From: Crocinitomicaceae bacterium
Lineage (GTDB): Bacteria; Bacteroidota; Bacteroidia; Flavobacteriales_D; Crocinitomicaceae
Direction of reading: 5' to 3'
Length of the DNA stretch: 32,059 nt
Assembly: GCA_008017065.1 (NCBI GenBank)
Contig: SSGT01000053.1
Coordinates: forward strand, 1-32,059
Shown piece after piece: positions 11,160 to 13,131 of this stretch (positions are counted from its first letter, which is position 1; every line of letters starts with the position of its first letter). The notes beneath the pieces are model-generated. The model was not told where the DNA came from, searched no databases, and worked only from the letters and a program-made list of their open reading frames with translations. Position numbers and translations under genes: made by a program.

Positions 11160-11277
11160 CTTCCAAGCAGGAGAAATGGATTGGCGACCGATGCGTTACG
11201 AGTTTTTAAACAATGCTATGCGGACAATTAATTGAGTCAAATCGCATTTGCATGGTCGAAATGGTTTCTTTTGTACC

Positions 11278-12171
11278 GTGAAATGGTTTCTCGTTACGTT
11301 TTTAGTACTTCCGCTTCTTGGAAATTCGCAGCTGCTCGATAATTCGAACGGACACGCCTTTGGAGAATTACCCTTTTTCAACGAAACGTTTATCAAAAAC
11401 AACCAAATCAAAGAACTTAAAGGAACCTACACCTATAAAAAGCTCGACGACATCATGCGTCCGTCCAACTACATTTACCGCTATGAATTTGACCAAGAAG
11501 GGCATCTGATTCGCTCCTTAGAAACACGTAAAGGTGTGTACGGAACGGATTCATTGGTCTTATTTTACGGCTACGACGTGCGCGGAAACTTAGCCTATGT
11601 TCGGAAAAAAGACAACCACGGCTATTGGTCAACACACTTTGAATACGACTCCTTGAAACGGAAAATCAAGGAAACCTATCGACGTGATATCGACACCGCG
11701 GGAACGCTCCTTGTTCCTTTTTTTGAAAGAAGTACCGTGTTGAGTTTCGAAACATACACCTACAAACAAACAGGAAATCAACTCAAAAAAACGACTTACA
11801 ACAACTATGGATTTCCCTACAAAGAAGAAATCAGCTATTTAGATAGCGCAGGGTTTGTAATCAACAAAGAATCGAAGTTAAAAATGACTTCTGAAAAAAC
11901 AACCACATATTATGGCTACAACGCCAACGGTTGGATTTCAAAAATTACCGTCGAAAACGAATCAAATCCTACGTTCAACTCCGAAGTTTTCTTCAAATAC
12001 GACACTTTTGGGAATTTGATTGAGAAACAAGTGTACGAAAATGGAAAACACATCACTGAGATTCAATTGATTTACAACACAAAAGATGGATTAATTTCTT
12101 CAATCTTGATCCGTGATGTAAAAACAAGTTTAATTACCATTCTGCGTTTCGAAGAAATCAAATTTCAATAG
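11278..12171 (+). CDS. Exported protein with RHS/YD-like beta repeats, unknown function
   Basis: I do not recognise a named family. The chosen start is the GTG at 11278, because it opens VKWFLVTFLVLPLLGNSQ, a standard signal peptide; a TTG at 11248 would add ten residues without benefit. The mature part of about 275 residues consists of repeated aromatic-rich strands such as YRYEFDQEGHLIRSLETR, FYGYDVRGNLAYVRKKD, FEYDSLKRKIKETYRR, YYGYNANGWISKITVEN and FKYDTFGNLIEKQVYENG. This Y-x-Y-D/N-x-x-G-x-L pattern is that of YD/RHS-type beta repeats, which build beta-barrel-like wraps in larger RHS proteins. No sorting domain or lipobox is seen, so the protein is likely periplasmic or outer-membrane associated. 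It is divergent from purK and ends just before the terminator side of the candidate small RNA. Confidence 0.75.
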   Translation: MKWFLVTFLVLPLLGNSQLLDNSNGHAFGELPFFNETFIKNNQIKELKGTYTYKKLDDIMRPSNYIYRYEFDQEGHLIRSLETRKGVYGTDSLVLFYGYDVRGNLAYVRKKDNHGYWSTHFEYDSLKRKIKETYRRDIDTAGTLLVPFFERSTVLSFETYTYKQTGNQLKKTTYNNYGFPYKEEISYLDSAGFVINKESKLKMTSEKTTTYYGYNANGWISKITVENESNPTFNSEVFFKYDTFGNLIEKQVYENGKHITEIQLIYNTKDGLISSILIRDVKTSLITILRFEEIKFQ

Positions 12172-12172
12172 C

Positions 12173-12201
12173 AAAAAAAAATGCCCTAGTAAACTAGGAC
12201 A
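12173..12201 (-). terminator. Intrinsic terminator of the small RNA / pdxJ unit
   Basis: On the minus strand TGTCCTAG and CTAGGGCA pair across a TTTA loop (one mismatch), and the hairpin is followed directly by nine T residues (12181-12173). The U-run is on one side only, so it acts on leftward transcription. It lies two bases beyond the stop codon of the converging gene. Confidence 0.75.
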
Positions 12202-12263
12202 TTCTCACCACATTGTCATCATCAGTAGTAAATTTCTTTGTGGCGTATGCTTATTTCATTTCC
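12176..12263 (-). ncRNA. Candidate small RNA with own promoter and terminator
   Basis: The minus strand of this 214-base gap holds a complete small transcription unit. A consensus promoter (12268-12299) would start RNA near 12263. The RNA can form a hairpin from CGCCACA (12245-12239) and TGTGGTG (12212-12206) with a loop of about 26 bases, then a terminator stem (12201-12182) followed by nine U residues. The product would be about 85-90 bases. The only reading frame with ATG at its start is two codons long (ATG AAA TAA at 12259-12251), so it is probably non-coding. I do not recognise it as 6S, tmRNA, SRP RNA or RNase P. pdxJ lies 120 bases upstream on the same strand, so read-through could also end here. 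Confidence 0.5.
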
Positions 12264-12267
12264 ACTG

Positions 12268-12299
12268 CAAATATAAACGCATCGAAGGAAAAAAATCAA
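12268..12299 (-). promoter_or_regulatory. Promoter of the candidate small RNA
   Basis: Minus-strand TTG at 12299-12297, a 21-base spacer, and TATATTTG at 12275-12268 match the Bacteroidota -33/-7 consensus in both boxes. There is no protein gene downstream on this strand before the terminator at 12201, which is why a small RNA is proposed. Confidence 0.55.
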
Positions 12300-12385: not shown

Positions 12386-13102
12386 TTAAACAAGCAAATG
12401 CTTGTATTGCTGAATTGTGTTTTCAAGACCTAAATACAGCGCGTCTGAAATTAAGGCATGTCCGATTGACACTTCCAACAGTTGAGGAATGTGTTGCTTG
12501 AAAAATTTGAGATTCTCCAAACTCAAATCATGTCCGGCGTTGATGCCTAAACCAAAATCTGTCGCGAGGTAAGCAGCATTGATATATGCTTCAATGGCTT
12601 CGGTAGGATTGTTGGGGTAATTTTCAGCAAATGGTCCGGTATAAAACTCTATTCGGTCCACGCCTGTGAGCGAGGCATATTCAATATTCACCAGGTTTGT
12701 GTCTACAAAAATCGATGTGCGCACACCGTGTGATTTCAACTCCGCGATAATCGCTTTCAATGATTCGATATGTTTCTTGGTGTCCCAACCGGCGTTCGAC
12801 GTCAATACATGCGGAGGATCGGGTACCAAGGTAGCTTGCTGTGGCTTAATTTCAGCAATCATTCGCATGAAGCGTTCGTCGGGATACCCTTCGATGTTTA
12901 GTTCGGTTTGAACTACTTGCTTCAAATCGTACACATCTTGGGTTGTGATGTGTCGCTCATCGGGACGCGGATGAATCGTAATTCCATCAGCACCAAATCG
13001 TTCACAATCAATTGCTACTTGAGTCACACTCGGAACATTTCCACCACGTGCGTTGCGTAATGTGGCAATTTTGTTGATATTTACACTCAATTTTGTAGAC
13101 AT
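12386..13102 (-). CDS. pdxJ: Pyridoxine 5'-phosphate synthase
   Basis: Condenses 1-deoxyxylulose 5-phosphate with 3-hydroxy-1-aminoacetone phosphate to give pyridoxine 5'-phosphate, the last step of DXP-dependent vitamin B6 synthesis; TIM barrel, cytoplasmic. The 238-residue chain shows the N-terminal [18 protein letters not shown], the signature [16 protein letters not shown], the phosphate-binding [13 protein letters not shown], and [13 protein letters not shown] near the end. The ATG at 13102 is chosen over a longer frame because family members start a few residues before LSVNIN. Downstream lies the small-RNA region. It is divergent from the CBS/nadK pair. Confidence 0.97.
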
Positions 13103-13123
13103 ACGGATTGTTTTTTTTGACAA

Positions 13124-13131
13124 CAAATTTA
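13124..13131 (-). promoter_or_regulatory. Putative -7 promoter element of pdxJ
   Basis: Minus-strand TAAATTTG matches TAnnTTTG and ends 21 bases before the pdxJ ATG. No TTG is found at the right spacing upstream, so support is partial. Confidence 0.35.

Follow-up and report, generated by a model that had tools for sequence, protein, structure and literature searches.

A probable small RNA gene behind pdxJ in a genus of Crocinitomicaceae, and a candidate sponge for multicopy small RNAs

The interval behind the pdxJ gene in a Crocinitomicaceae genome raises the question whether it holds only the end of the pdxJ mRNA or a gene of its own, and what the RNA of such a gene could do. The window (the whole stretch of DNA analysed, 32,059 nucleotides) belongs to a 73% complete assembly (G000; family f1, genus g1); the isolate names suggest a freshwater origin. 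A sequence-only reading of 12173-12299 had proposed an orphan small RNA on the minus strand, with a promoter of the form TTG-N21-TATATTTG, a 7-bp stem and a terminator with nine U residues, all of which are confirmed by direct reading of the interval. The transcript of about 88 bases given there agrees with the length predicted here. The element also occurs in three related species (G001, G002 and G004), so that the features below can be compared over four copies.

11248 to 12171, plus strand: gene of an exported protein, convergent neighbour of the element
12386 to 13126, minus strand: pdxJ (vitamin B6 gene), upstream neighbour of the element on the same strand
12297 to 12299, minus strand: -33 element TTG, in each of the four copies 20 or 21 bases ahead of the -7 box
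12268 to 12275, minus strand: -7 element TATATTTG of the Bacteroidota primary sigma type, exact in G000, G001 and G004
12173 to 12262, minus strand: predicted small RNA of ~90 nt, 5' end predicted to +/- 3 nt
12251 to 12259, minus strand: AUG-AAA-UAA triplets, not conserved and outside the proposed function
12206 to 12245, minus strand: 5' hairpin with a 7-bp stem (arms 12239-12245 and 12206-12212, CGCCACA and UGUGGUG) and a 26-nt loop
12219 to 12230, minus strand: invariant loop 12-mer UACUACUGAUGA, the proposed pairing site, whose complement UCAUCAGUAGUA lies in the type C small RNA described below
12173 to 12205, minus strand: intrinsic terminator, a 12-bp stem (12194-12205 and 12178-12189) plus nine U (12181-12173)

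The sequence TAnnTTTG at -7 is the consensus of the Bacteroidota primary sigma factor (PMC7366714). In the window 21 bases separate the TTG from the TATATTTG box, and a start is expected near 12262; the score of 9/12 in a generic sigma-70 scan understates this promoter, since TAnnTTTG is the Bacteroidota form of the -7 element. The 90-nt RNA has a predicted folding energy of -23.1 kcal/mol (z = -4.06), and none of 200 shuffled sequences folds equally well. The terminator stem, AAATGCCC(TAG)..(CTA)GGGCATTT at 12178-12205, is common to many terminators of the genus, including some outside the element.

A search for pdxJ locates an ortholog in all five species of the genus (G000 to G004), each with the same convergent exported-protein gene as its neighbour. 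Between the two genes the element is found in G000 and in three of the four other species, with promoter spacing, hairpin, loop 12-mer and terminator recurring at the same site, as expected of a small RNA with its own promoter. Identity to the window copy is 72-75% from hairpin to terminator versus 38-46% upstream of the promoter box. Stems and promoter are kept in G001, G002 and G004, except that in G002 the -7 box is degraded to CACATTTA, with the TTG still 20-21 bases upstream. The element is absent from G003, where pdxJ and the exported-protein gene are ~94 bases apart. A covariance model (R1) built from the three relatives only, with the window copy left out, recovers that copy as the top match in G000 (E = 2.6e-5). 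Matches of R1 elsewhere were set aside, as they are mostly terminators of the genus that share AAATGCCC..GGGCATTT.

The Rfam search proposed in the sequence-only reading returns no family for the RNA within the window; low-scoring matches (PsrR1, AgvB, NsiR1 and others) are dismissed as chance or generic terminator shape. The compensatory changes expected there in both stems are scarce: 98.6% of cells are paired across the copies, and among 18 pairs there is one two-sided change, a result equalled by 134 of 500 shuffles. Given this single change, covariation decides neither for nor against the fold, and it was dropped as proof of an RNA gene. Scanning of named genomes for the hairpin pattern returns only three metagenome-assembled genomes of the genus and two unrelated Schlesneria sites; matches in other phyla and in viruses were rejected, as no terminator stands behind the hairpin. 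The element shows the hallmarks of an intergenic trans-acting small RNA, namely a promoter of its own, a terminator, no conserved reading frame and conservation as RNA. The sample is small (four copies, all from one genus and nearly free of covariation), but the conservation makes it very probable that the element is a genuine and previously uncatalogued RNA gene.

The most informative part of the element, which the sequence-only reading had missed, is the conserved loop. The 12-mer UACUACUGAUGA is unchanged in all four copies and the remainder of the loop varies; TACTACTGATGA is the longest unchanged stretch, and its distance to the stem arms varies slightly. The motif TACTACTGATGA-N-TGTGG is found in 4 of 240 genomes of the family, each time at the pdxJ site. 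If the RNA acts, it most likely does so by base-pairing through this loop. The loop sequence (...ACUACUG-AUG-A) resembles a translation start.

Complements of the loop were sought in the five genomes of the genus. In G001 and G002 the search identifies an intergenic element, AAGAAGTTCATCATCAGTAGTAGTATGAATTGTTAGGTAAGAAAAACCCGGGGCCACCCGGGTTTTTGATTTTT, between speE and a D-Ala-D-Ala dipeptidase-like gene, identical in both genomes over ~75 nt with diverged flanks. This element (type C) is another uncatalogued small RNA, and the exact complement of UACUACUGAUGA is situated in its seed. Other complementary sites are antisense to copies of the loop or to coding sequences, apart from one sense match within a gene of G002. 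Three further genera hold sequences akin to it, GTAGTAG..TTAGGTAAGAA with a terminator behind, and a sequence model built on the 5' part of the speE element finds 2-3 copies per genome in the genus and others across many of the family's genera. These AGUAGUAG small RNAs are grouped into types A (GTTAGTTTTCATAAGTAGTAGTAGTTTAGG), B (5' end AGTAGTAGTAGGTTAGGTTGATTAG) and C (speE locus). All consist of a 5' seed and a terminator, and TAnnTTTG-type boxes are seen by eye upstream of several of the copies inspected. The type C seed CATCATCAGTAGTAG is specific to the genus, its relatives elsewhere having mostly CATAAGTAGTAG, and it differs from most other genera in having CATCATCAG in place of CATAAG; the loop, likewise specific to the genus, matches the genus form of this seed. 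Loci of the family in G000 include C170:10214-10243 on the plus strand (L126) and C63:31378-31395 on the minus strand (L121); further loci are L110, L111, L113, L114, L125, L127 and L071-L079.

The loop is complementary to type C over a perfect 12 bp, to type A over 12 of 13 positions and to type B over about 8. Among 1000 shuffled loops only 14 and 3 form as good a duplex with type C; for types A and B the fraction is 1.9-10.4%. Cofolding yields a net gain of -9 to -12 kcal/mol with type A or C and of -5 to -10 kcal/mol with type B, and the loop of G000 would pair with type C of G001 and G002 over 15 nt (-23.7 kcal/mol). Seeds are predicted to be unpaired at 54-85% and the loop 12-mer at 52-68% on average, and the loop is thus only partly free in the folds. 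As a rough estimate rather than a computed statistic, the chance that an 11-mer complement falls in such a small RNA is below 1%, from which some discount is due because partners were actively sought. Both RNAs are present together in two genomes (G001 and G002), and neither is detected in G003, a 99% complete assembly. Neither the G000 assembly nor that of G004 yields type C, and the adjoining speE gene is missing from both as well. Conserved and accessible complementarity to a small RNA seed is found, an exact match being confined to type C of G001 and G002.

The best single explanation, to which we assign a probability of roughly 0.4, is a stand-alone small RNA that pairs through its loop and acts on the AGUAGUAG small RNAs as a sponge or target mimic. 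The ~90-nt intergenic RNA would be transcribed independently from its own Bacteroidota-type promoter, and its hairpin would present the conserved 12-mer to the 5' seeds of these small RNAs, with 12 bp for type C, 12/13 for type A and ~8 bp for type B. Such pairing would titrate them off their mRNAs. The anatomy of the gene, its conservation, the complementarity and the predicted accessibility are shown, and from these transcription, pairing in the cell, the regulatory direction and the existence of downstream targets are inferred. The sponge reading draws on complementarity and on a small sample of co-occurrence, and its main rival is a small RNA that targets mRNAs.

According to this rival, the element encodes an ordinary trans-acting small RNA with a loop that serves as a seed for mRNAs, and the match to the AGUAGUAG small RNAs is coincidental or secondary. 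Loop seeds of such kind are common in small RNAs, and in G002 the 11-mer complement matches once in sense orientation within a coding region. However, the window contains no other complement of the loop of 9 nt or more, and no conserved mRNA site was found in searches that stop short of genome-wide target prediction. We regard this explanation as rather unlikely, though it is the strongest of the alternatives.

A second alternative is that the element is no more than the 3' end of the pdxJ mRNA, consisting of a terminator and a hairpin that protects the transcript, from which processing might release a fragment. From pdxJ to the exported-protein gene the scan shows, on the minus strand, no terminator besides that of the element, and the pdxJ mRNA therefore probably ends there; the small RNA would stop at the same terminator. 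The element also follows pdxJ in the three relatives, and a similar hairpin and terminator are found behind other genes in G001 and G004. In these respects it resembles small RNAs derived from 3' UTRs, being likewise located behind a gene on the same strand with a probably common terminator, but it differs from them in having a conserved promoter of its own. Three of the four copies retain the TATATTTG box and, 20-21 bases ahead of it, the TTG, in surroundings that diverge; termination does not require an invariant 12-nt loop, and pdxJ of G003 manages without the element. The claim that there is more structure than a pdxJ trailer needs is accordingly borne out by promoter and hairpin conservation, and the 3'-end explanation is improbable.

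We consider it very improbable that the RNA is a dual-function or mini-ORF RNA in which the AUG of the loop starts a five-codon peptide (MNIVE, MSFVE or MMTMW): a stop follows after five codons in all four copies, but the residues are not conserved, nothing downstream on the strand is available for attenuation, and the two extra hairpins of G001 and G004 lack the five-codon stop. The sequence-only reading had seen no frame beyond two codons; in the window the loop AUG opens the frame MMTMW in addition to AUG-AAA-UAA. The latter, suggested to be a decoy or leader peptide, has no counterpart in the relatives. Of that overall interpretation the small RNA gene thus stands, and the leader peptide and the covariation do not.

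The extra hairpins differ from that of the pdxJ element in the stem (GAATCA/TGATTC) but share its type of loop (ACTRCTGATGAAT); each is followed by a terminator, and they lie at these positions.

G001, C25, 24234 to 24311, minus strand: extra hairpin (L027) behind a fasciclin-like gene
G004, C14, 24578 to 24660, minus strand: extra hairpin (L028/L052) behind an uncharacterised gene

The two sites look like one orthologous locus, and the hairpins seem to be another version of the pdxJ small RNA loop, carried in 3' UTRs. Separately, the start of a gene of G000 which we take to be SiaB-like (C204, 11812, minus strand; L049/L134) reads TACTACTG-ATG-AATATTGT, a stretch in which 19 nt recur unchanged in the loop region of the pdxJ small RNA in G001 and G004. 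This start was weighed as a possible conserved type C target and rejected, as it is not kept in the orthologs.

Sponges of small RNAs are known from enterobacteria, for example AgvB, SroC and the chbBC spacer. Like the window RNA, these are short and carry a site that complements the seed of a multi-target small RNA; the window RNA differs in phylum, has an unrelated sequence, and its role as a sponge is a prediction. Its match to AgvB is weak (17.7 bits against 56) and reflects hairpin-terminator shape only. Closer in phylogeny are FopS and GibS of Bacteroides (PMC11697453, PMC7366714), which are likewise short RNAs with a Rho-independent terminator. FopS genes have a primary-sigma promoter, as does the window RNA, and the seeds of FopS (RF04319) pair with the translation starts of susC-like mRNAs (PMC11697453). 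Unlike FopS, the window RNA presents its loop on a hairpin, lacks a FopS seed and has no match in Rfam; it stays below the gathering score of RF04319, and a permissive scan lists no FopS. Types A to C resemble FopS in layout, with an unpaired 5' seed, a terminator, a TAnnTTTG-type promoter and 2-3 copies per genome, but they do not belong to the FopS family: one copy (L071) aligns to the model over its full length at 22.2 bits, compared to a gathering score of 56, and the model matches neither the six type A and B loci tested nor type C.

Post-transcriptional regulation in Bacteroidota is known from few small RNAs, and the mRNAs of these bacteria lack Shine-Dalgarno sequences. No RNA sponge of this phylum is described in the literature searched. 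The pdxJ-linked RNA may tentatively be seen as one, a mimic of a translation start that would titrate FopS-like multicopy small RNAs, their seed and its anti-seed changing in concert within one genus. The AGUAGUAG small RNAs themselves are present in many genomes of the family and have no Rfam entry (none at gathering score). As the conserved pdxJ-linked RNA has a pairing site defined to 12 nt and its candidate partners are named, the RNA-RNA pair is open to direct testing.
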